In this document: piece after piece, positions 41,846-54,091 of the stretch
Position numbering within the stretch: the stretch's first letter is position 1
Layout of the letters: each line of letters starts with the position of its first letter
NCBI GenBank assembly: GCA_014860115.1
Contig: JACZKK010000208.1
Coordinates: forward strand, 1 to 56,192
Origin: Ignavibacteriaceae bacterium
GTDB taxonomy: Bacteria; Bacteroidota; Ignavibacteria; Ignavibacteriales; Ignavibacteriaceae
DNA length: 56,192 nucleotides
Direction: 5' to 3'
The notes under the pieces: model-generated
What the model was told of the DNA's origin: nothing
The model's input: the letters and a program-made list of their open reading frames with translations, nothing else
Database searches by the model: none
Made by a program: the position numbers and the translations under genes

Positions 41846-42472
41846 TTATCCTGCCTTCTTCTTCTCCATACTCCTGTAAACACCAACAACAATTCCAACC
41901 AGCTTAAATGAGGAATACTTCTTCTCGATAATGATTGGCTTATAATCAGGGTTTTCTGAAATAAGCTCTATTTCATTCTTCTTTTTATAAAATCTTTTCA
42001 CTACTGCCGCATCATCAAGAACAGCAGCAACAATCTGTCCGTTCTTTGGTTCAAGGTTTGGGTTCACGATAACGATATCACCGCTGAAGATGTATGCATC
42101 CTTTAAGCTGTCTCCTTTTACACGAAGCAGAAAAGAATCCTTCGGCATTCTTGCAATGGTTGGCAGCTCGATTGTATCAATTGCATCAGGATAAATTGTA
42201 AGCGGATTACCTGCCGCAACTTCTCCAAGAATAGGTTTCGGAACAAAGAATTTATCTTCAAGGGTCAGTTCAATACCGCGGGAAAGTTTTGGATTTTTTT
42301 TGATGAATCCTTTTTTCTCAATCGCACTAAAGTGCTGCTGAACTGTAGCCCTGTTCCTGTAACCAAAATGGTCTGCAACCTCAGCTAAAGTTGGAGGTAT
42401 TCCTTTCCCTTTTATTTGATCAATTAAAAAATCAAGAATATCTCTCTGGATTGTGGTTAATTCTTTTTTCAT
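41846..42472 (-). CDS. lexA: LexA repressor
   Basis: The 208-residue protein represses the SOS genes until RecA triggers self-cleavage. The N-terminus is a winged helix (TTIQRDILDFLIDQIKGKGIPPTLAEVADHFGY). The cleavage site is Ala-Gly in GEVAAGNP (about 87). The nucleophile serine is in KGDSLKDAY (about 119) and the general base lysine in AAVVKRFYK (about 157). A 16-bp palindrome at 42621-42636 in its upstream region may be its own operator. Confidence 0.95.
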   Translation of the reverse strand: MKKELTTIQRDILDFLIDQIKGKGIPPTLAEVADHFGYRNRATVQQHFSAIEKKGFIKKNPKLSRGIELTLEDKFFVPKPILGEVAAGNPLTIYPDAIDTIELPTIARMPKDSFLLRVKGDSLKDAYIFSGDIVIVNPNLEPKNGQIVAAVLDDAAVVKRFYKKKNEIELISENPDYKPIIIEKKYSSFKLVGIVVGVYRSMEKKKAG

Positions 42473-42715: not shown

Positions 42716-44842
42716 TTAGTTTACAAAAATCTTATTGAGTGATTCGAGCATCTTTTCACGAAAGATAGGCTTGGAGATAAAATCAGTAAAACCAGTGGCA
42801 ATGAATTTTTCTTTATCACCAGGAAGTACATAAGCGGTAACAGCAATAACAGGTATATTTTGGAAGCCAGACATTTGTTGTATTATTTTAAGAGCATCCA
42901 GACCATTATACTCTCCCTGCAAGTTTATATCCATAACAATGAAATCAAATTTTTGTGATTCCAGCAATGGCAGTGCTTCCTCAAAGCTTGCAGCAAATTG
43001 AATATTCTTCAGCTCTTTCATTTGAACCTTGAAGAGAATCTGTGAATCTATCTGATCTTCGATATAAAGACATTTTAGTGAAGATATACCTTTCTTACTG
43101 CTGGCAGGCTCAGGTTCAGGTGTTTCATCAATTGAGATCTCTTCTTCTATCAGAGTTTCTTCTTCCTGTTTAATTTCGGGCTTCTCTTCCACATCAATCA
43201 CTTCCGTAATCACGGTTTCTTCAATTGGTTCGACTTTAGTTTGCCCAGAGTTTACTTCTTCAATTTCTATCTCACCCTTAAAGCTAAAAGGTTCGGGCTC
43301 CTTCATTTCAATTTTATCAGCAGTAACTTCCGGCTCTTTGATTTCCTCAATTGAGGGGATCTCAAATTTTTTCGATAGTTCAATTGGAAACTTAAAGGCA
43401 AAATCATGCTTATCTGTATGTTCGTTAATATTAACAAATTGTCCTTCTAATATTTCCAGAAGTGAACTTATAATCTGAAAATTCAACTTTGAGATACCTG
43501 ACTCTTTTGGGTCATGTTTCTCAATGAATAAATTCTTTAAAGTATCGAGAAGAACACTTGAAGATCTGGCAAACCCATCGGAAACTGAAATATTAAAGTA
43601 ATCATCTTCAACAGGGTATGCCGAGAAGTAAATCTTTTTTTGAGCACTAATTTTACCTACAAGTCGAATTAGATTATTGAGAAAACTCTCAAACTTCTTT
43701 TTATCAGTTGAAAACTTTAGAGATGATGATATTTTACCATAAGCAAATTCAATGTCTTTTAATCCTGTTATATCTTTTATATTTTTATCCAACGGCTCAA
43801 CGATATCAACTATTGTAACTGAACTAATCTCATTTTCTGTTTTTTTCGATTGAAGATCTGAGAATTCAATTATTGAATTCATTAGTCCAAGTAATGAACT
43901 CCTGTTCTGATTTATTATATCTACAGCTTCTTTTTGTTCGGGCGACATATTCTGGATGCTTTCAGTCAGTTCCTGAGAGAATCCAAGGATGACATTCATA
44001 GGTGTGAGAATTTCGTGAAAAACGCTTGAAAGAAATGAAGTTCCGAGTTCAGAATCTTTTGCTTTCCCTGCAATAGGTTTTTCAACAATTACTTCTTTTA
44101 CAACCTCTTTAATAACTTCCTTCGTTGCCGGAAGAAAAGATTTTTGGCTTGACGAAACCTTTCCAATTAACGAGAAAGAATCAACCTCATTATTAACATT
44201 AATAATAGGGGTTGAAGTCATTTCAGTTTCGATAACATTTCCATCTGAAGTTTTTAATTTAATTGTGAAGGTCGCTATTTCTTTAATATGAGATTGGAAA
44301 ACAGAACTGTTTATAAAGATTCTGTCTTCATCATCGCAATGTGATGTTATTGAGGTATTAATCAATTCCAGTTTAGGAATTCCAAGATTTCTGGAAGTGG
44401 AATCATTAGTAAATGTTATCAAGCCCGTAGGATCAGTAACAAAAATCATATCATTCGTATTATCGAATGCAGATTTAAAAAGCTGGTTATATTTCTCTAA
44501 TTCCAATCGATCGGTTACGTCATCAATTATATTCAAGTAGGATTCAATACCATCAAATTCATAGTTGAATTTGCTTAATCTTACGAATACATAACTGCCA
44601 TCTTTCTTTCTATGTCTGAATGGTTTACTCAAATCTCCTTCTTTAAGACTTTGCTCTGAGGTTTCCAATAAGGTCTGGATATCTTCGGGTGTGTAAAGAT
44701 CTGTCAGATCCATTTGAAGAAATTCATCTTCAGAATAACCATAAAGATTTAAAGCAGCTTCATTCACTTCAAGAAATCTTAAATTCTCTTTGTCGTAAAT
44801 AAAAATTGGTTTCGGGTTATTTTTTAATATTAAGTCTAACAT
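42716..44842 (-). CDS. PAS-PAS hybrid sensor protein with degenerate kinase domain
   Basis: The 708-residue protein starts with a PAS domain (MLDLILKNNPKPIFIYDKEN), then a second (FKSAFDNTNDMIFVTDPTG, about 123-225). A histidine-containing dimerisation helix FHEILTPMNVILGFSQEL (about 277-294) follows. In the ATP-binding region the usual N box and G boxes are not evident (SDGFARSSSV replaces a normal DxGxG), so ATP binding is doubtful. An acidic, proline-rich linker (about 495-590) leads to a receiver domain with phospho-acceptor Asp in VMDINL (about 639), AVTAY and ISKPI. The same reading frame continues upstream through two TAA codons into the gene at 45167, so this is probably the C-terminal part of one longer sensor. 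Confidence 0.85.
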   Translation of the reverse strand: MLDLILKNNPKPIFIYDKENLRFLEVNEAALNLYGYSEDEFLQMDLTDLYTPEDIQTLLETSEQSLKEGDLSKPFRHRKKDGSYVFVRLSKFNYEFDGIESYLNIIDDVTDRLELEKYNQLFKSAFDNTNDMIFVTDPTGLITFTNDSTSRNLGIPKLELINTSITSHCDDEDRIFINSSVFQSHIKEIATFTIKLKTSDGNVIETEMTSTPIINVNNEVDSFSLIGKVSSSQKSFLPATKEVIKEVVKEVIVEKPIAGKAKDSELGTSFLSSVFHEILTPMNVILGFSQELTESIQNMSPEQKEAVDIINQNRSSLLGLMNSIIEFSDLQSKKTENEISSVTIVDIVEPLDKNIKDITGLKDIEFAYGKISSSLKFSTDKKKFESFLNNLIRLVGKISAQKKIYFSAYPVEDDYFNISVSDGFARSSSVLLDTLKNLFIEKHDPKESGISKLNFQIISSLLEILEGQFVNINEHTDKHDFAFKFPIELSKKFEIPSIEEIKEPEVTADKIEMKEPEPFSFKGEIEIEEVNSGQTKVEPIEETVITEVIDVEEKPEIKQEEETLIEEEISIDETPEPEPASSKKGISSLKCLYIEDQIDSQILFKVQMKELKNIQFAASFEEALPLLESQKFDFIVMDINLQGEYNGLDALKIIQQMSGFQNIPVIAVTAYVLPGDKEKFIATGFTDFISKPIFREKMLESLNKIFVN

Positions 44843-45169
44843 TGTTTCTCTACTTAACGAAAATTTATGGGCATTTATTTTTTTAGTTGATTTAGTGAAA
44901 CAAAGCGCAACTAAATCTTCCTTTTCCTTTTCTTTATAATACCTGGAAATCTGTAAATGATATCCATTTCCCGACTCAGGGATTACATCTAGACTTTCAT
45001 TTAATTCAATTATTATGCCATCTGAGGCACTTTTTGCGAAGTTTGAAATTACCTCGTATTATTTAGAAGGAAATAATCCTGTTAAATCAGAATTCAGTAT
45101 ATCTTCTGAATTTTTATTTATCAATTTACAAAATTCCTGATTACAAAGCTTGATTTTTGCATAATTTTA
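44843..45169 (-). pseudogene. interrupted PAS domain linking two frame-matched sensor fragments
   Basis: Between the two sensor frames the minus strand remains in one reading frame for 109 codons, broken only by TAA at 45169-45167 and TAA at 45061-45059. Ignoring these, it reads NYAKIKLCNQEFCKLINKN, then SEDILNSDLTGLFPSK, then YEVISNFAKSASDGIIIEL, a good PAS domain whose first strand is SLVPVPIAVI at the end of the upstream gene. There is no frameshift. Each stop could arise from one C-to-T change in a CAA codon. Confidence 0.8.
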
Positions 45170-46081
45170 AATAACTGCTATCGGGACAGGCACAAGAGAA
45201 ATAATATCTCTAAAGATTGCTTCATTTACCTTGCTTGTATTAATCGGTAGAGTTGAAGGAATTTCACGGGAAAAACCTACCAATGCGATAATTTTTCTAT
45301 CAATATCAATTACCGGTATTTCTAAGATCCCTTTCCCCTCGCTCAATGAAAAATTAAACATTGAAATTCCCTTTATAACAATTGGATTTTTTAACTCAGA
45401 CTGATACTTCTCAACTGCATTGAAAAATTTTTTCAGGTGAGCGGGAACAAACTCCATATAATTTTTCCCTTCAAGCTGAAATTTCTTGAAACCCAATATG
45501 TCACAAAATTTATTATTTACAATTAAAAAATTACCAGCACTATCTTTTATCCAGAACAATTCATTTAGAGCATCAACTTGCTTTTCTATTAATTCCATCT
45601 GAATAAAAGTGGTTGGATAACTAGAAGTAAAATCAGTTATAATTTTTTGAACATTTTCATCAGAAACAAGTTCTTGAAGATCAGCTGGCAATATTGAAAA
45701 ATTCTTTATTGAAGTTGAAGGTATGCTTACTTCATTTGGGACAATATCGATTAGAAAGATTTTTTTGTCATCAAAAGAATTTTTTTTGATAATAATATTG
45801 ACCGACAGAGATTCACCGCCTTTTAATTTTAAAGTGAATGCATCTAAATTGATTTCGGATTCTGTTTCAGCTTTTGATTTCAGAATTATATTTAGCTCCT
45901 GCCAGCAATCCAGAAGTAAATAATCCTTCAAGTATGTTTTGGATAAATCATATCTAAAAATTTTCTTTGCACACTTATTGATTAAAAGAATCTGATCTGA
46001 TTCTTCAATTAATAAAAAAGCTTCTTTAACGCTATCTATAATCGACTGAATTATTACTTTAATATTTTCGAAAGTATTCAT
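45167..46081 (-). CDS. PAS-domain sensor N-terminal fragment
   Basis: The 304-residue product contains one PAS domain at about 10-115 (DSVKEAFLLIEESDQILLINKCAKKIFRYD), a second at about 165-280 (VDALNELFWIKDSAGNFLIVNNKFCDILGFKKFQLEG) and then stops after the first strand of a third (ISLVPVPIAVI). Without a kinase domain it could not signal by the usual route. Continuing past the stop gives the rest of the PAS domain and then the 708-residue hybrid protein, about 1120 codons in total. It lies 194 bases downstream of the exopolysaccharide locus. Confidence 0.8.
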   Translation of the reverse strand: MNTFENIKVIIQSIIDSVKEAFLLIEESDQILLINKCAKKIFRYDLSKTYLKDYLLLDCWQELNIILKSKAETESEINLDAFTLKLKGGESLSVNIIIKKNSFDDKKIFLIDIVPNEVSIPSTSIKNFSILPADLQELVSDENVQKIITDFTSSYPTTFIQMELIEKQVDALNELFWIKDSAGNFLIVNNKFCDILGFKKFQLEGKNYMEFVPAHLKKFFNAVEKYQSELKNPIVIKGISMFNFSLSEGKGILEIPVIDIDRKIIALVGFSREIPSTLPINTSKVNEAIFRDIISLVPVPIAVI

Positions 46082-46275: not shown

Positions 46276-48153
46276 CTAAAGATTATATTTATCGTAATCA
46301 ATATAATAAGTTCGCGATTCACCGGCAGCGAGTTCATCTATTAGCATGAAGACAAATTGTGAACCGTCTTCGTGTTTATAGTGTGCTTTTTTAGTCCCGA
46401 TAATCTCGGTATCAAGACTTACCCTCTCAGCTTTTTGATTTAAATCAACATCAACTACGAGATAATTGATATTGAAACTGCCGAAATTTGTAATTGTAAC
46501 CGCTACCCTGCTGCTTCCTCTTTTTTGAGTTCTTAATTCGATAAAATCTTTTTTGTCTGACCATTCAGCGATTTCTGATGCAGTAGCAATCCAGTAATCT
46601 TTTGATTTAATGTCTCGGATTAAATCTCTCACTACTTCAATATTTTCTGGCGCACATTGATAATTCATATGCATTTTAAAAAGATAAAGACCACTTTCGA
46701 ATGCAATCCGGTCAACGTCTTCCTGATAGGAATAAAATTGCAAATCTCTTTCTGTAAGATTAAAATCACGAATTACCTCATAATCATCACGAACAGTTCT
46801 TGAGATTGAAATGATTTTTTCATCTTTACGTTTGATCGTTTTAGGTACTGACCTGTCATCCAGGGAATCAGATATGAAATATTTAAACCCGCTTGCCATT
46901 AGAGTTTTAATAGTACTTTCTGCTAAAAAATTTACTGAAGGATAGATTCCATCAACAGATACTCCTGTGATCTTTTCCAGCATCATCTTATCATCAGAAA
47001 TAGTATTTAGCAAATTATTGTTATCTGAAATAGCATTTACAAATTCAAAATTGATATAAGCGGCCACCTCACCATGGTTAACCAAGTTCTTTATCAATTT
47101 AGGATCCTGCCCAACAATAGAAGGGCTAACAAAAAAAGTTGCTTTAGCTTTTGCTTCTCCTAAAACCGAAAGCAAGTAATTAATGTTTTTTAAACTATCG
47201 GAAATAACAGGTGCTAACATTGCAGCACCTCTGTAACCATTTGGCCAGTTTCTAAGATAAGCAATGGGTTTATAGGTTAACCAGCTGATGCAATTATTAA
47301 AAAGTCTGTCGAAATAAACATAATCATCCTGTCGCCCGAGAACTGAGTTGATTTCAAAACCCATCCAGACAAATCTTCCCTTTCCATAGTTACCATAAAC
47401 TATTCCAGCGGTCTCTTTAATTCCTTCTCTCACCAAACCATCTTCGAGCTGGTGATTATACCAGAAACTAATCTGAGTTGTACGCGGATCGAGGACTTCC
47501 ACAGCAATTGGATGATCCCAGGTTGCAATATTTAGTGAAAATCCGGTTGGGATATTTGCAGTTACTGGCAGTCCACCTCTCAAAGTATGAATTTTAGTTC
47601 TATCATCATTACCGATTTCTTTTCTGAAAGTAATTCCAAAAACATCTGATAGAAAATCCCATCCTCTCCATTTACCATCCTCAGAATATGAACCGGTACC
47701 GCCTGTTGCAAAAATGCTTCCGCCATTCTCAAGATATTTTTTTAATTGAATTACCTCTCTTTCACTTAAAGATTTACAGCCTGAAAGAACTATAAGATGA
47801 TAATCATTAATTCCTCCTAACTCAACATCTTCATCATTTATATGCTGATATTTTATATCAAGATTTCGTAAAGATTTTTGCCATGTCTTCAGGTTATCCT
47901 CAAACCAGCTGCTTTCTTCAGCAAGTATGTTCTTCGTGTAGTCTGAATTAAGTATAGCAGTGGAAGGAAAAGTTCCAAACACAAGATCATTAACTGCTTT
48001 TACACTTGGTACAAGCTGAGAAGCTGAAAATCTACCATATACTGTTCTGATTATAAGCAGATAAACAAGAGCTGAAAAAATCAGTACAATTAAGCCCGTC
48101 AGAAACAGAAAAAATATATGGGAACTGAATCTATTTTTATCGCCTATCGCCAC
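46276..48153 (-). CDS. membrane-anchored deacetylase-like exopolysaccharide protein
   Basis: The 625-residue protein has an N-terminal membrane helix (FFLFLTGLIVLIFSALVYLLII), then a flavodoxin/glutamine-amidotransferase-like domain (LIVLSGCKSLSEREVIQLKKYLENGGSIFATGGTGS, about 110-150), and from about 310 a polysaccharide-deacetylase-like fold (KAKATFFVSPSIVGQDPKLIKNLVNHGEVAAYINFEF). The canonical TFDDG and H-x3-H metal ligands are not visible (LAPVISDS and NHGEVAAY occupy those places). It may therefore be a non-catalytic relative of PgaB/PelA deacetylases. Its start overlaps the upstream small gene by 10 bases. Confidence 0.78.
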   Translation of the reverse strand: MAIGDKNRFSSHIFFLFLTGLIVLIFSALVYLLIIRTVYGRFSASQLVPSVKAVNDLVFGTFPSTAILNSDYTKNILAEESSWFEDNLKTWQKSLRNLDIKYQHINDEDVELGGINDYHLIVLSGCKSLSEREVIQLKKYLENGGSIFATGGTGSYSEDGKWRGWDFLSDVFGITFRKEIGNDDRTKIHTLRGGLPVTANIPTGFSLNIATWDHPIAVEVLDPRTTQISFWYNHQLEDGLVREGIKETAGIVYGNYGKGRFVWMGFEINSVLGRQDDYVYFDRLFNNCISWLTYKPIAYLRNWPNGYRGAAMLAPVISDSLKNINYLLSVLGEAKAKATFFVSPSIVGQDPKLIKNLVNHGEVAAYINFEFVNAISDNNNLLNTISDDKMMLEKITGVSVDGIYPSVNFLAESTIKTLMASGFKYFISDSLDDRSVPKTIKRKDEKIISISRTVRDDYEVIRDFNLTERDLQFYSYQEDVDRIAFESGLYLFKMHMNYQCAPENIEVVRDLIRDIKSKDYWIATASEIAEWSDKKDFIELRTQKRGSSRVAVTITNFGSFNINYLVVDVDLNQKAERVSLDTEIIGTKKAHYKHEDGSQFVFMLIDELAAGESRTYYIDYDKYNL

Positions 48154-48578
48154 TTTATCTCTTCATGAAAAGAATCTTTTGAAACAGTTTCATCCGAAGG
48201 TAAACTATATTTTTCAAATTTCATTTTAGGCATAACTACCTGATTCCTGGAAACTGACTTCACATCTGCTTTGCTGCCTAAATCTTCCACAACACGGTAT
48301 TTAGCCTCGGTTTGTTTTCCACTCACCGATTTAACTGGCTCAAAACCCTCAGAATTAATATTTGGCTTTGGTTCAATAGCTTCTTCAATGAAAACCTTGT
48401 GCTCCTTTTTCTCTCTGGGCACAAAATATTCAGCCTCTAGATAATCCGGTTTTTGCTCGGGAGAAACTTTTACTTGGCCTTCACGGATTTTATAAAGAAT
48501 ATAAGCACCTACAGCAAGTATAAATGTGCTTATTGTAGCAACCAGAATTATTGTAGATAATATTGGTATTAGTTCCAT
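48144..48578 (-). CDS. small single-pass membrane protein in the exopolysaccharide operon
   Basis: The 144-residue protein has one N-terminal helix (LIPILSTIILVATISTFILAVGAYILY), followed by about 110 charged, probably unstructured residues (KEHKVFIEEAIEPKPNINSEGF). No family is recognised. By position it corresponds to PgaD-like accessory subunits that stabilise the synthase, but PgaD has two helices, so the parallel is only positional. It lies 29 bases after the glycosyltransferase gene and overlaps the next gene. Confidence 0.65.
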   Translation of the reverse strand: MELIPILSTIILVATISTFILAVGAYILYKIREGQVKVSPEQKPDYLEAEYFVPREKKEHKVFIEEAIEPKPNINSEGFEPVKSVSGKQTEAKYRVVEDLGSKADVKSVSRNQVVMPKMKFEKYSLPSDETVSKDSFHEEIKWR

Positions 48579-48607
48579 TTTGTAACCCTCAAATAATTAT
48601 GACTTTA

Positions 48608-49996
48608 TTAACCGACCCTTTCAAGTTTGCCCCAGGTCATTTTAATTCCTAAAAATTCTTCAATAGTCGACATTGCTTTACAAATATCGATTATCAAAAT
48701 AAAAACCATTCTATAAATGATTGCATATCCAACCAATCTGAACTCTTCTTTTTCAGCAGCTACGCAATAAATAGCTGCAACAATATCAAGAAGTGCCAGA
48801 GCAGCCCACCAATAAAAAATTAGAGATGTAAAACCAAAGAATAAAGCAGCAAAGATAAAAAACAAGTGAGCCGCAATATTCATCGGCGGCCAGAGTAATG
48901 CTTCATAGAACATTGTCCAGAGTATAAATGAATCTCCGAATTTAATAGTTGGATTAAGCATTAGCTTTTTATGTTTCCTGATGGATTGAATTATACCGCG
49001 CGTCCATCTGTATCTTTGCTTTAAAAGCTGTTGAAGTTTTACAGGTGCTTCTGTGTATGAAATCGAGTTAGGTTCATAATAAATTTTCCAGCCGTGAGAA
49101 ATTAGACGCAGAGTTATATCTGCATCTTCAGCGAAAGTATCACCTGAATAATAATCAACACTTTGTACTGCTGCTCTTCTGAAAACTCCAATCGGACCGG
49201 GAATAATATTTACTAATCGAATAGCACTTTGAGCACCACGCGCCATATTTAATCCCTCTACATATTCCAGAGCTTGCAGATCTGTAAAAAACTTTTTTCT
49301 GTTGAGTACTTTAACATTTCCTGCAACCGCTCCGATTTCAGGATTAACAAAATGACGAATTGCCATTTTCAGGGAAAGGGGCGTTAGAATAGAATCTCCA
49401 TCCATACACAAAACAAATTCAGCTTTTGATACTTTTATTCCAAGATTAAGCGCACTTGCCTTTCCACCATTTGGTTTATTTATAAGTGAAACCTTTACGC
49501 TGCCATATTTTCCCTTCTGGTAACCAACAAATTTTTCAGCAACATTTATGGTATCATCTGTGGAACCATCATTTACTATTATTATTTCAAAATCTTTATA
49601 ATCAAGATTTAATAATGAACTGATAGATTTCTGCAGCACCCGCGCTTCATTGAAAACCGGGACAATTATCGAGACGAATGGTTTAAACCCGTTTATTGGT
49701 TTGAATGTATACTCATTCATGTAGAAATACGAAAAGAAAAGTATTCCGAAGTAGCGGATTAAAAGAATAAATAAAAATATTACTAAAGCTACTATTGTTG
49801 CATATTCAATCAATGATGAAATTGTTAAAACTGTAAGTGGTAAAGTAAAATAAATTACCAGTAATAGAATAATTGAAATGATCCCGCTGAAAATTATTCT
49901 CTTGATTAATTTCCACTCGTTGCCGTTAAAATCATTATTAACGGGTTCGTTTCTGAAATGTAATTTTAACTTTTTTATTGACTGATTTATATTCAT
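48608..49996 (-). CDS. family 2 processive glycosyltransferase, PgaC/IcaA-like
   Basis: The 462-residue protein is an inner-membrane polysaccharide synthase. Two N-terminal helices (about 34-85) precede the catalytic domain with VSIIVPVFNEARVL, NDGSTDDT (about 143), the metal-binding MDGDS (about 198), FAEDAD (about 290; general-base aspartate) and QRYRW (about 327). Several helices follow. The C-terminal TWGKLERVG resembles PgaC-type enzymes that make poly-N-acetylglucosamine, but other beta-linked polymers are possible. It lies 8 bases before the TPR/barrel gene stop, with the same orientation. No c-di-GMP-binding PilZ domain is visible. Confidence 0.88.
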   Translation of the reverse strand: MNINQSIKKLKLHFRNEPVNNDFNGNEWKLIKRIIFSGIISIILLLVIYFTLPLTVLTISSLIEYATIVALVIFLFILLIRYFGILFFSYFYMNEYTFKPINGFKPFVSIIVPVFNEARVLQKSISSLLNLDYKDFEIIIVNDGSTDDTINVAEKFVGYQKGKYGSVKVSLINKPNGGKASALNLGIKVSKAEFVLCMDGDSILTPLSLKMAIRHFVNPEIGAVAGNVKVLNRKKFFTDLQALEYVEGLNMARGAQSAIRLVNIIPGPIGVFRRAAVQSVDYYSGDTFAEDADITLRLISHGWKIYYEPNSISYTEAPVKLQQLLKQRYRWTRGIIQSIRKHKKLMLNPTIKFGDSFILWTMFYEALLWPPMNIAAHLFFIFAALFFGFTSLIFYWWAALALLDIVAAIYCVAAEKEEFRLVGYAIIYRMVFILIIDICKAMSTIEEFLGIKMTWGKLERVG

Positions 49997-50004
49997 AATA
50001 AATA

Positions 50005-52881
50005 TTAAAAACTCCAGAATGCAGAAAGTCCAAATGATGTGGAAGTATAACCCTTTCCAGATTGAGCAGTTGTGGTAAAAGTTAACCTTCCCTGGATAGT
50101 AAATGAATCTGTTAGTTTCACACTTGTAATTCCATAAAATTCACGAAGGACAAATTCGTCAGATGGAATGTAACCAAGTCTTCCTCCAATATTAGCTGTT
50201 GCGGTTGCGTCATTGACAATTTCCCAATCAGCCCAGATACTGTGAGTCTCAAAATTTTGCGGAGACCAGTACAAGTTAGTTTCATTCTTCACATCGAAAT
50301 AATAGTACTCATAACCAACACCAACAACCTTATCAAATATTTTTCCGAATCTTAATTGTAAGCGGTTAGCTTTGTTATCATCCGAAACTGTGATGAATGC
50401 ATAGGAGCCAGCGAACTTCCAGCCGGTATTGACGATATAATCGCCTATCATCAAAAAATAATTTGATCGTAATCTTGTGTTGACAAGGTTTGGCGAATAC
50501 AATATTTGTGCTGCATCCATCGAAAAAAAATTTGCAGAGAATGAATAGACCTTCGGCTGTTCGGCTTTTAAAGTAACTTCAGCTAAAAGTTGATTATTAT
50601 CATCCGGAAAAATTGTGCTGCCAAGCGATGCAGAGGCATAAACAGTTTTGGAAAACCGTCCAATTAGACTTCCCTTATAAATCGAAATATTATTTGTTAG
50701 CGAATCCGAATTAAGAACTCCACCATAAGCTGACGCACCTATAGTTAAATAATTTGTAATTCCTAAATCAAACCTCAGACCGTAAGTAGAATAAAGAAAT
50801 CCAAAGTTGTCCGTGAAATAGTTAAAATCAGGAGTCAGCATTGTATAAACAGGAAATCCACTTTGGTACGAAGGTCCTTCAATCCAGCTTAACCTTTCTA
50901 CTAGCATCGGTGAAGATGGTGATATTGCGAGTAGTTCTTCATAGACTTCTTTTGCTTTGTCGAAATCTCTCAAACCTGCATAAGAGTCTCCCAACAGAAG
51001 TAATACTTCAGCATCATCGGGATTAATTCTATTTAATTTTGTGAACTCATCTAAAGCCATTGTATAGTTTTTATTCCAGAGAAAAAGTTTTGCTCTTTGC
51101 TTGGCACTTAAATAATCATCCGGGCTTTCAAGAAGAAGCCTATTATAAATACTGATTGCACTCTCAAAATCACCTTTGCATATATAGGCTTCAGCTAATT
51201 CGTTTCTTACTTCTGGTTTTGCCTTTTCATCTGCGAGGTATAATTTGAATAGCTTTATGGCCTCATCACAATCTTTTTTGAGCAGGTGCTCTCTTGCACT
51301 TTCTGCAATTTTAAATAATTCAGCATCTTCATTTATTTTTTTCTGTGCTTCCATCATATAAGTAAGCTTTAAATATTCAGGATCTTTGGAATTAAGCTGT
51401 GAAAGTTCTCCCAAATATTTTTCTGCATCAGCAAGCTCATTATTCTGAATCAATAAAAGGGCTAACGTTGAAAGTGCGGAATAGTTCGATGGTTCCTTGC
51501 TCAAAACCTTCTCAAGATAAATTTTTGCTGACTCTGGATTTTTATTCAACCAGGTTGAAATCTGTCCAAACATAAGCTGATAATTCTTATTATCAGGATT
51601 TTTATTTATCAGGATTTCCGCATTTTCATAAGCTGTGTTTAAATCACCTGAAGCTAAGCTGATAATGGTAGACTTGTAAAGGATTTCTTCATCAGAAGGA
51701 TATTCTTTTAATAGTTTACCCAGAACTACTTGAGACGAATCATACTCTTTTTTTGCAGCTAATATCTGTGCCAGTTCCAGATTTAATTTTTTATCGAGGG
51801 GATTAACTAAAAGTTCTTTTTCTAAAATTGAAATACGCTTATCGTAATATTTAATTTTATTGAGCTCTAAAGATTTTTCCAGTTCCTCAACTTTATTCAG
51901 ATATGCTTCGGTGTTGGATAGAATTTTTAATTGTTCTTCTGCTTCAGCAAATCTGTTATTTTTAATTAGCTCGTTGATGAGTAGTATTCGTGTATCGTTA
52001 TTATTAGGGTTTTTGCGGAGAACCTTGTAGTATTTATCAATTGGATATTCACCTTTCCCAGTCGAAACAGGCAAACCATAATTGAATCGGGATGTTGTAT
52101 CGTTAACAGTATAAATGTAACCTTTACCCCGAACTAGATCGTATCCATCCAGAGCTTCCTTAAAATATGGTCTAAGCTCAAGCGCTTTTTCAAATGCTCT
52201 GATAGCAATTTCCTTTTTACCTAGCCACATAGTAAAGTAACCATATCTTGACCACAACCTGTGATCGTTCGGATTTTTTTCAGTATAACTTTTCAGCAGC
52301 GGTTCGCCCTTAGAAACGTTATTATTCTTCGCAAGAATTTCAGTATATCTGATCAATTCATCTGCTGAAAGGTTCTCTCTCTTAATATATTCATCATACC
52401 ATTTTTCAGCTTCCAACCAGTTGCCGAGATTTTTAAAACACTTACCGACTTCCAGATAATTATCCGGTTTGTCGGGATTTATTTTCATTTCACGTTTAAA
52501 ACCAACAATCTTGTTATAAAGAAGTGTTTCCCAGCTATTCACTACACGTTCAAGATTTTCGTTATAGGTTTTATTTTTCTGATCAAGCTTTACCGCCGAC
52601 CTGAAATCATAAACAGATTTCTCATAATCTTTTCTACTCTCATAACATAAACCACGCAGATTATATCCATTTGCATCCTGTGGATTGGCAGAGATGAATC
52701 GATTGAGAAGATTAATTGCTTCTCCAAATTTTCCCGCACTCATATGCTTTTCAGCTTGAGTCTTTAATAAATCGTCTTTGCTTTGTGAAATAAGGAAAGG
52801 ACTGGTAAAAAATAATATACCGGCTATGAAAATAAATACGGTTCGAAATCTAAATTCAATTAAGACCGATTTTATCTTCAT
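50005..52881 (-). CDS. TPR plus outer-membrane barrel export protein, PgaA/PelB-like
   Basis: The protein has a signal peptide (VFIFIAGILFFTSPFLISQS), then about 13 tetratricopeptide repeats up to about residue 690 (for instance AEKHMSAGKFGEAINLLNRF and AIRAFEKALELRPYFKEALD), and a C-terminal barrel (about 700-958) with strands such as FRLSY-like alternating segments and terminal FGLSAFWSF. This is the layout of PgaA, which guides deacetylated polymer to and across the outer membrane. ATG 52881 gives 958 residues with a clean signal peptide; an upstream ATG at 52926 would add 15 residues and place the hydrophobic segment less well. It overlaps the ATPase gene by 26 bases. Confidence 0.88.
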   Translation of the reverse strand: MKIKSVLIEFRFRTVFIFIAGILFFTSPFLISQSKDDLLKTQAEKHMSAGKFGEAINLLNRFISANPQDANGYNLRGLCYESRKDYEKSVYDFRSAVKLDQKNKTYNENLERVVNSWETLLYNKIVGFKREMKINPDKPDNYLEVGKCFKNLGNWLEAEKWYDEYIKRENLSADELIRYTEILAKNNNVSKGEPLLKSYTEKNPNDHRLWSRYGYFTMWLGKKEIAIRAFEKALELRPYFKEALDGYDLVRGKGYIYTVNDTTSRFNYGLPVSTGKGEYPIDKYYKVLRKNPNNNDTRILLINELIKNNRFAEAEEQLKILSNTEAYLNKVEELEKSLELNKIKYYDKRISILEKELLVNPLDKKLNLELAQILAAKKEYDSSQVVLGKLLKEYPSDEEILYKSTIISLASGDLNTAYENAEILINKNPDNKNYQLMFGQISTWLNKNPESAKIYLEKVLSKEPSNYSALSTLALLLIQNNELADAEKYLGELSQLNSKDPEYLKLTYMMEAQKKINEDAELFKIAESAREHLLKKDCDEAIKLFKLYLADEKAKPEVRNELAEAYICKGDFESAISIYNRLLLESPDDYLSAKQRAKLFLWNKNYTMALDEFTKLNRINPDDAEVLLLLGDSYAGLRDFDKAKEVYEELLAISPSSPMLVERLSWIEGPSYQSGFPVYTMLTPDFNYFTDNFGFLYSTYGLRFDLGITNYLTIGASAYGGVLNSDSLTNNISIYKGSLIGRFSKTVYASASLGSTIFPDDNNQLLAEVTLKAEQPKVYSFSANFFSMDAAQILYSPNLVNTRLRSNYFLMIGDYIVNTGWKFAGSYAFITVSDDNKANRLQLRFGKIFDKVVGVGYEYYYFDVKNETNLYWSPQNFETHSIWADWEIVNDATATANIGGRLGYIPSDEFVLREFYGITSVKLTDSFTIQGRLTFTTTAQSGKGYTSTSFGLSAFWSF

Positions 52882-54091
52882 CAGGGATATCTGCAGCAAG
52901 TAATTGCTTAAACATGTCTTCTGCATTCTGTGTTCCCTTATCCATCTTAATTGAATATAGAGAAATGAATTTGGTTACTTTATTTAAATACTGTGCGCTG
53001 CCCTTCGGAAGATTATTGATAATCAAAGGTACTAATGAATTTGCATCTTTATCTTCTTTTGTAAAAAGAATGAGAACAATATTTTTTAGAATACAAATTT
53101 TATCTTTTTTATCGATAAATAAATTGATAGCGCTTGCAAGTTGATCTATTGTAATCAACTTGTTATTTAATGCAGTCTCATCCAATTTGACTGCCACGAG
53201 AGTTGACTCCTTGCATGTTTCCCTGTAATAAGCAATCTGATTATTCAGTAATAATTTAAAATCTTCTACTGAGTAATAACTAAGAGGAGCAATGTTTGTC
53301 TGAGCTTGTGAAATGTCAGTAAGAGATAAATAAGAACTTCTTCTATCATCAACCGAAGAAATTTCCCGAACAGATATTTCGGGTAAATAATCAACCTGTA
53401 TCCCTTTATCAGGTTCAATATAGTAATTGCAGGCAAACTCACCTTCAACGTGTCCAACATTAGGAGTGATCTTAATCTTGCCGGGATTATTTTTATTAAT
53501 TAAACCTTCCTCTTTTTCTAAAACAATGTGACCGGTTGAAAGGCTTAACAGTGAAGAAACAATTTTGTTAGCTGACTGAGTTACAGGCTCGCTTAAAATA
53601 AATAAACTCGTTATTCCTTTTTCTTCAATATAGTCTATGGTTTCGAGGAAAGTATCTTTGAGAAGTCCTAAATCTTTAAACCCTACAAAAGGAGTTAATT
53701 CATCAAATACAATTCTGCTTGGATTGTATTGATCAATAACTGACTTTATATCCTTGATATACTCAACCATATAAGAATCCGGATCTTTCGCATATTCAAT
53801 ATTTTTAGCAGGTGTAACACGCACTAAAATAAACTGGTTCTGAGTTATAAAATGCTGCAAATCTACATCAATAGTTGCAGCATTAATCATCAAATCCCTG
53901 GGTCGAAAACTGGAAAAATAGAGACAAGTCTCCTTTTTGTTCACAGCTTCCAGGATGTACTGGAGTGCAAAGATTGTTCTTCCAGATTTTCTTGGACCTA
54001 AAAGAAAATACGTACCGCCCCTATAAAATCCTCCCCAAGATAAATCAACAAGCGGATTTCCGGAAGGGATCACTTGTAAATTAGTGTTCAT
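52856..54091 (-). CDS. KaiC/RecA-like ATPase with altered P-loop
   Basis: The 411-residue protein resembles KaiC-type regulators: VIPSGNPLVDLSWGGFYRGG (about 8-26), the P-loop GPRKSGRT (32-39), and Walker B SRIVFDELTPF (about 128). In the P-loop the invariant GK[ST] lysine is arginine (Arg38), though a lysine lies at 35. The C-terminal 120 residues (VEDFKLLLNNQIAYYRETCKE to ISLYSIK) have an outline like a decayed GGDEF domain (VAVKLDETALNN, IVLILFTKED) but no GGDEF motif. It lies just before the export protein and overlaps it. Role in polymer control is inferred from context. Confidence 0.72.
   Translation of the reverse strand: MNTNLQVIPSGNPLVDLSWGGFYRGGTYFLLGPRKSGRTIFALQYILEAVNKKETCLYFSSFRPRDLMINAATIDVDLQHFITQNQFILVRVTPAKNIEYAKDPDSYMVEYIKDIKSVIDQYNPSRIVFDELTPFVGFKDLGLLKDTFLETIDYIEEKGITSLFILSEPVTQSANKIVSSLLSLSTGHIVLEKEEGLINKNNPGKIKITPNVGHVEGEFACNYYIEPDKGIQVDYLPEISVREISSVDDRRSSYLSLTDISQAQTNIAPLSYYSVEDFKLLLNNQIAYYRETCKESTLVAVKLDETALNNKLITIDQLASAINLFIDKKDKICILKNIVLILFTKEDKDANSLVPLIINNLPKGSAQYLNKVTKFISLYSIKMDKGTQNAEDMFKQLLAADIPDEDKIGLN

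Follow-up and report, generated by a model that had tools for sequence, protein, structure and literature searches.

When a conserved multi-domain sensor gene is found cut by stop codons in a shared reading frame, has a part of it been lost, are the stops read through, or have two cooperating proteins arisen from one? This question is raised by a locus in a 56,192-nucleotide contig from an Ignavibacteriaceae bacterium (assembly GCA_014860115.1, contig JACZKK010000208.1; the whole stretch is termed the window in the following), which is part of a draft genome of 3.93 Mb in 222 contigs. Two open reading frames (ORFs) for PAS-domain sensor proteins and the bases between them lie in one frame that is broken by two TAA codons. 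An initial annotation made from the DNA sequence had named recent loss, programmed readthrough and a split into two cooperating proteins side by side, and among these three the first is the best supported. The locus represents a lineage-specific interruption of a conserved sensor gene; in our opinion its front half has probably been lost fairly recently, and its rear half survives.

The interrupted reading frame

On the minus strand, positions 46081-42716 constitute a single frame of 1122 codons in which two in-frame TAA codons, and no other stops, precede the terminal stop (Table 1). The initial annotation had described one shared frame of about 1120 codons cut by two TAA without a frameshift, and the stops are found exactly as claimed. 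Shuffling of the bases yields a mean of 92 and a minimum of 70 stops in 1122 codons (200 shuffles), and the 108-codon stretch between the two ORFs contains one TAA versus about ten in shuffled versions (probability of one or fewer 0.0005, 2000 shuffles). As shuffled bases give far more stops, the open frame across the inter-ORF stretch is not due to chance. The stretch aligns with the third PAS domain (PAS3) of unbroken orthologues, but when positions 45166-44843 are compared with Pfam alone, the matches (PAS_9, E 0.0025; PAS, E 0.015) both stay below the Pfam cut-off. The presence of a third PAS domain is therefore upheld by alignment, while the earlier wording "convincing" was too strong on the Pfam matches.

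Orthologues of the sensor gene

Of 164 genomes belonging to the order, 140 (counting that of the window itself) contain the rear half at an E value of 1e-60, and all 84 matches obtained at 1e-70 in a class-wide draw of 391 genomes fall in the same order. No orthologue was found at 1e-60 in G004 (84% complete). Two sets of sequences, together covering 116 of the 139 other genomes matching at 1e-60, were used: set 1 consists of 56 aligned orthologues, mostly from the first search, and set 2 of 60 further loci of the order that were picked by hand and are skewed to better scores. Exclusion of four members of set 2 (G108, G113, G117 and G161), in which the contig ends before 150 upstream residues, leaves 112 uncut orthologues.

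One long gene is the usual form. In 104 of the 112 uncut orthologues the open frame extends by at least 150 and usually 280-440 residues ahead of the rear half, beyond both stop columns. Among the genus-mates G005, whose gene is the most similar one, encodes a single open protein of 1135 amino acids (aa) with five PAS stretches, HisKA and a receiver. The front ORF of the window shares 46% identity with residues 1-304 of this protein and the rear ORF 69-71%, and the inter-ORF stretch is 43% identical over residues 3-94. The intact gene in G005 and the single gene in 104 of 112 uncut orthologues bear out the view that the window contains one multi-PAS sensor gene interrupted by nonsense codons. 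The initial annotation had regarded orthologues in which the parts are separate genes as speaking against this view. A rear part on its own does occur in orthologues, but it is the minority form: eight of the 112 are without a front half in the same open frame.

Neither stop is shared with the orthologues. All 50 set-1 orthologues with letters at the two columns have sense codons there, the aligned rows being stop-free frames by construction. The column of the first stop holds Asp in 29, Asn in 7, Ser in 6, Thr in 5, Gly in 2 and Lys in 1 of them, and that of the second Ile in 19, Leu in 17, Val in 6, Phe in 5, Tyr in 2 and Thr in 1. An origin of both stops from CAA to TAA changes had been proposed; it is not supported, as Gln occurs at neither column in these 50 orthologues and the prevailing residues are Asp (29/50) at the first and Ile or Leu (36/50) at the second.

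In the scenario that we favour, two nonsense mutations inside PAS3 would have knocked out the front half (PAS1-PAS3, about 413 residues) in the window's lineage, and the rear half (708 aa) would still be made from the ATG at 44842, where other front-less members also begin. Judged from the DNA sequence, the rear half is most likely translated from this position. We infer that PAS1-3 are dispensable for its function and that the front ORF of 304 codons has ceased to be of use.

Loss of the front half in relatives

Eight orthologues (G001, G002, G003, G073, G077, G087, G137 and G138) are short forms with at most ten residues of open frame before the conserved Met column. They arrived at this state in various ways. 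G001 has an intact rear gene for 758 aa, preceded by an 873-base gap in which a remnant of PAS3 is the sole recognisable part (E 7e-5 in a whole-genome search; E 4e-10 against the front half of G005 in a small local search). The remnant contains an internal stop and is out of frame with the rear gene, and stops are numerous in each of the three forward frames of the gap. In G002 (single contig, 99% complete) no clear match to the front half was detected genome-wide (best E 0.017). Its genes for an enolase-superfamily protein, a fatty-acid-hydroxylase-like protein, a small receiver protein, the short sensor and LexA follow one another in the order seen in the window, minus the KaiC-like, TPR, glycosyltransferase, 144-aa and deacetylase-like genes and the front half of the sensor gene. 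The block absent in G002 comprises about 9.5 kb (44843 to approximately 54380 in window coordinates) and ends just before the rear ATG. The same order is found in G003, on a short contig.

Four further short forms, G073, G077, G087 and G137, stem from another family of the order; as judged by eye, the short genes of G073, G077 and G137 come after a gene for fibronectin-type repeats and that of G087 after other genes. G138, again from another family of the order (L086:654-3299), makes up a special case because its front ORF of 386 aa ends in TAG, followed by one codon and then by the rear ATG in the same frame. This front ORF matches a front-half profile over positions 20-400 with an E value of about 1e-43 (profile from 44 rows, window included) and is 22% identical to the front half of G005. 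The G138 gene is cleanly split at the conserved Met with an intact front half, and it is possible that the two parts form a translationally coupled pair.

The situation resembles that of bacterial pseudogenes and interrupted genes (e.g. the pseudogene classes of PMC3711429) in that a conserved gene is interrupted in one lineage, homologues are intact and relatives carry different lesions. It differs in that the damage is limited to the front half, the rear being complete and conserved as an ORF with a conserved start of its own; moreover, PMC3711429 deals with frameshifts and not with in-frame stops. Genes split by stops are usually classed as pseudogenes or errors; here, relatives lose one sensor module by varied lesions and keep the other from the same start. 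The interruption event itself is ordinary, and the interesting part is the repeated restart point in the family.

Phylogeny and number of losses

In an rpoB tree, for which two fragments of G003 were merged and a single fragment of G004 was used, the branching order is (G001,(G005,(G004,(G002,(window,G003))))) with supports of at least 88, and the window stands beside G003 (98/98). The loss in G001 is independent of that in the window because G005, placed between them, is intact. The tree of the rear half conflicts with rpoB: G002 and G003 are joined on a long stem (100/100), and the window groups with G005 (0.90 in FastTree, 71/74 in IQ-TREE). When topologies were tested, the rpoB order forced onto the rear half was rejected and a position of the window as sister of G002 plus G003 was not. 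The conflict may stem from recombination or transfer at the sensor locus, or from a burst of change there. The window's loss is likely separate from the deletion in G002 and G003, as the lesions differ, and the count of independent losses within the genus is uncertain.

The conserved methionine as a likely restart point

The column of residue 414 of the joined frame, at which the rear ORF begins, holds Met in 52 of the 57 set-1 rows (window included) and in 51 of the 57 set-2 rows with a letter there (G080, G108 and G161 have none). Unbroken forms contribute 45 of 50 in set 1 and 48 of 53 in set 2, i.e. 93 of 103 together. Met is replaced by T, S, V, A, L or I when all rows are considered and by T, S, V, L or I in the unbroken forms.

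In the unbroken forms the conserved ATG is often preceded by an AGAGGA-like sequence. Pairing with the anti-Shine-Dalgarno sequence has a median of -5.8 kcal/mol at 45 of these ATGs in set 1 versus -1.4 at 703 other in-frame ATGs; five further conserved Mets gave values of -0.4 to -3.3 kcal/mol, and 17 starts of nearby genes gave -4.3. In set 2 the mean is -4.4 kcal/mol at 48 ATGs versus -1.6 at 408 others. Furthermore, local RNA structure is weaker at the conserved ATG (-3.0 vs -4.4).

The AGAGGA-like sequence also encodes a conserved Arg-Gly in most set-1 rows, and synonymous resampling gave no significant result either in set 1 (z -1.27, n=45) or in set 2 (z -1.22, n=48). Five control Mets range from z -1.36 to +0.35, three of them (z -1.05 to -1.36) being like the conserved Met. 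By this test the purine-rich signal is not clearly stronger than the encoded peptide alone would give. A subset of rows without Arg-Gly was first spotted post hoc in the 45 set-1 rows. The prediction of RNA-level enrichment in such rows was fixed before set 2 was fetched, and there it was narrowly borne out (30 rows, some of them related; z -1.78, p about 0.04 in a one-sided test), compared with z +0.31 in set-2 rows containing Arg-Gly; relatedness of the rows renders the p values of the synonymous tests optimistic. Arg codons ending in A are enriched before Gly at this site (28 of 32 versus 16 of 51), which was seen in the same set-1 data and is a lead only.

The internal start is well placed and possibly used in the unbroken forms. 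We tentatively consider a gene with two products, in which an order-wide internal start between PAS3 and PAS4 would yield, in addition to the long protein, a short one composed of PAS4-PAS5-HisKA-receiver and would explain why the front half has repeatedly been lost with the rear half kept; this idea is a possible one, though not one that we would expect to hold. CheA of E. coli occurs in a long and a short form, the latter arising from an internal translation start. The sensor gene is similar in that a Met inside the long form, often accompanied by a Shine-Dalgarno-like stretch, could start a shorter signalling protein. It is different in that the products are deduced from the gene sequence and the RNA signal is not clearly separable from the encoded peptide. 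We found no report in the literature on PAS-domain histidine kinases with an internal start codon. If the start were used in unbroken members, the family would offer a testable case of a hidden second start that eases splitting or shortening of a large signalling protein.

Constraint on the parts of the gene and alternative explanations

The rear half is the better conserved one: the window and G005 are 75% identical in the rear parts counted and 45% identical in the front, and differences between their rear parts amount to 0.19, 0.11 and 0.54 at codon positions 1, 2 and 3, respectively. Branch rates were determined on a fixed tree of ten taxa from which G001, G002 and G003 were excluded since they are without the front half. 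Several observations weigh against a loss of the front half. The front ORF runs over 304 codons without stop or frameshift, and the ratio of the window branch to that of G005 is 0.64 in the 304 front residues (bootstrap 0.37-1.18), next to 0.80 in the rear (0.55-1.36). The ratio of 1.96 for PAS3 is suggestive but non-significant (bootstrap 0.44 to very large; P 0.11 relative to the rear and 0.09 relative to the front). The Shine-Dalgarno-like signal before the window's ATG at 44842 is weak (-3.1 kcal/mol), as is that of G005 (-2.2 kcal/mol). Going by the rates, the front ORF may still be under selection, or its loss may simply be recent; an error at one of the two stop positions is conceivable as well.

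The front ORF is without sign of long decay, and therefore either the loss took place recently or the 304-aa piece continues to be used. The latter would apply if a double-PAS protein of 304 aa and a HisKA-receiver protein of 708 aa were both made and cooperated, the PAS3 bridge alone having been lost. Such a functional split would fit a front ORF that is intact over its whole length and not accelerated, and it would also agree with the confinement of both stops to a stretch of 109 codons that starts with the first stop and runs up to the conserved Met. G138, cut by one TAG behind an intact front ORF, provides a parallel, but the cut in G138 is located at a domain border while that in the window lies inside PAS3, which is left broken. 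Genus-mates moreover dispense with the entire front half. We regard a functional split as the main rival of the favoured scenario, but as rather unlikely.

Even less probable is an error of sequencing or assembly, or a stop allele present in only part of the population behind the 222-contig draft. It is conceivable in so far as no second genome of the species occurs among the six genus members searched. However, the two stops are separate substitutions and not insertions or deletions, the residues around the first stop have, as judged by eye, also diverged from the PAS consensus of the orthologues, and loss of the front half recurs in the genus.

Readthrough of the two TAA codons, be it programmed or due to suppression, would restore a full-length sensor, and the frame that stays open across and beyond both stops could be quoted for it. 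It was considered and rejected as hardly credible in view of the two UAAs in series, of the sense codons that all 50 set-1 orthologues with letters have at both columns, of the 104 uncut orthologues out of 112 that reach past these columns and of the following findings. A tRNA search of the genome gave 40 matches (150 of 256 candidates scored) and ARAGORN called 39 tRNAs, none of which has the anticodon TTA, in a list that is incomplete and is without e.g. Ile-GAT and Glu-TTC, so that a suppressor tRNA outside the list is conceivable. In the vicinity of the stops the RNA is no more stably folded than shuffled sequences (z -0.70). Among terminators in the window TAA is the most frequent, ending 29 of the 42 ORFs of at least 150 aa (with the two sensor halves counted), in line with the earlier statement that a changed genetic code is unlikely. 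No literature report on stop codon readthrough in bacterial PAS-domain sensor kinases was found.

The rear protein and its doubtful kinase activity

The rear half encodes a protein whose architecture recalls hybrid histidine kinases of the PAS-HisKA-ATPase-receiver type. It has tandem PAS domains, and both the HisKA His and the receiver Asp (H276 and D638 in the numbering of the 708-aa ORF) are conserved without exception in the 21 members aligned. Unlike in those kinases, an ATPase domain is recognised in only five of 21 rear halves at E values up to 1, the matches being weak (best about 1e-4), which renders kinase activity doubtful. For the window protein there is no match to HATPase_c at E values up to 10; the ATPase region was placed by eye at about 43370-43820 of the window. 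Going by sequence, the rear half may be a sensor with a receiver domain and with little or no kinase activity, and the orthologues may make up a candidate family of kinase-dead hybrid sensors. A structure of the 708-aa protein predicted without an alignment had a pLDDT of 33.5, too low for use.

Neighbouring genes

Table 1. Positions of the sensor gene parts and adjacent genes in the window
Feature	Position	Strand	Remarks
First in-frame TAA	45167..45169	-	codon 305, Asp column of PAS3
Second in-frame TAA	45059..45061	-	codon 341, mostly hydrophobic column of PAS3
Front ORF	45167..46081	-	304 codons plus TAA; PAS1, PAS2, first residues of PAS3; Pfam matches
Interrupted PAS3 and linker	44843..45166	-	108 codons including one TAA
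Rear ORF	42716..44842	-	708 aa; PAS4, PAS5, HisKA, weak/degenerate ATPase region, acidic linker, receiver
ATG of rear ORF	44840..44842	-	residue 414 of joined frame; Met column conserved
LexA-like repressor, downstream neighbour	41846..42472	-	synteny anchor; Pfam; same order in G001, G002, G003 and G005
Upstream block	46276..54091	-	weak polysaccharide-deacetylase match, 144-aa protein without Pfam match, family-2 glycosyltransferase, TPR protein, KaiC-like ATPase

The deacetylase-like gene of the upstream block has no match at 1e-10 in G002 (99% complete) or in G003, G004 and G005 (77-84% complete). In G001, locus L035:11203-14800 contains two adjacent, distantly related deacetylase-like genes; the product of the one that adjoins the sensor gene, without a Pfam match at 0.01, is 21-24% identical to the deacetylase-like protein of the window.

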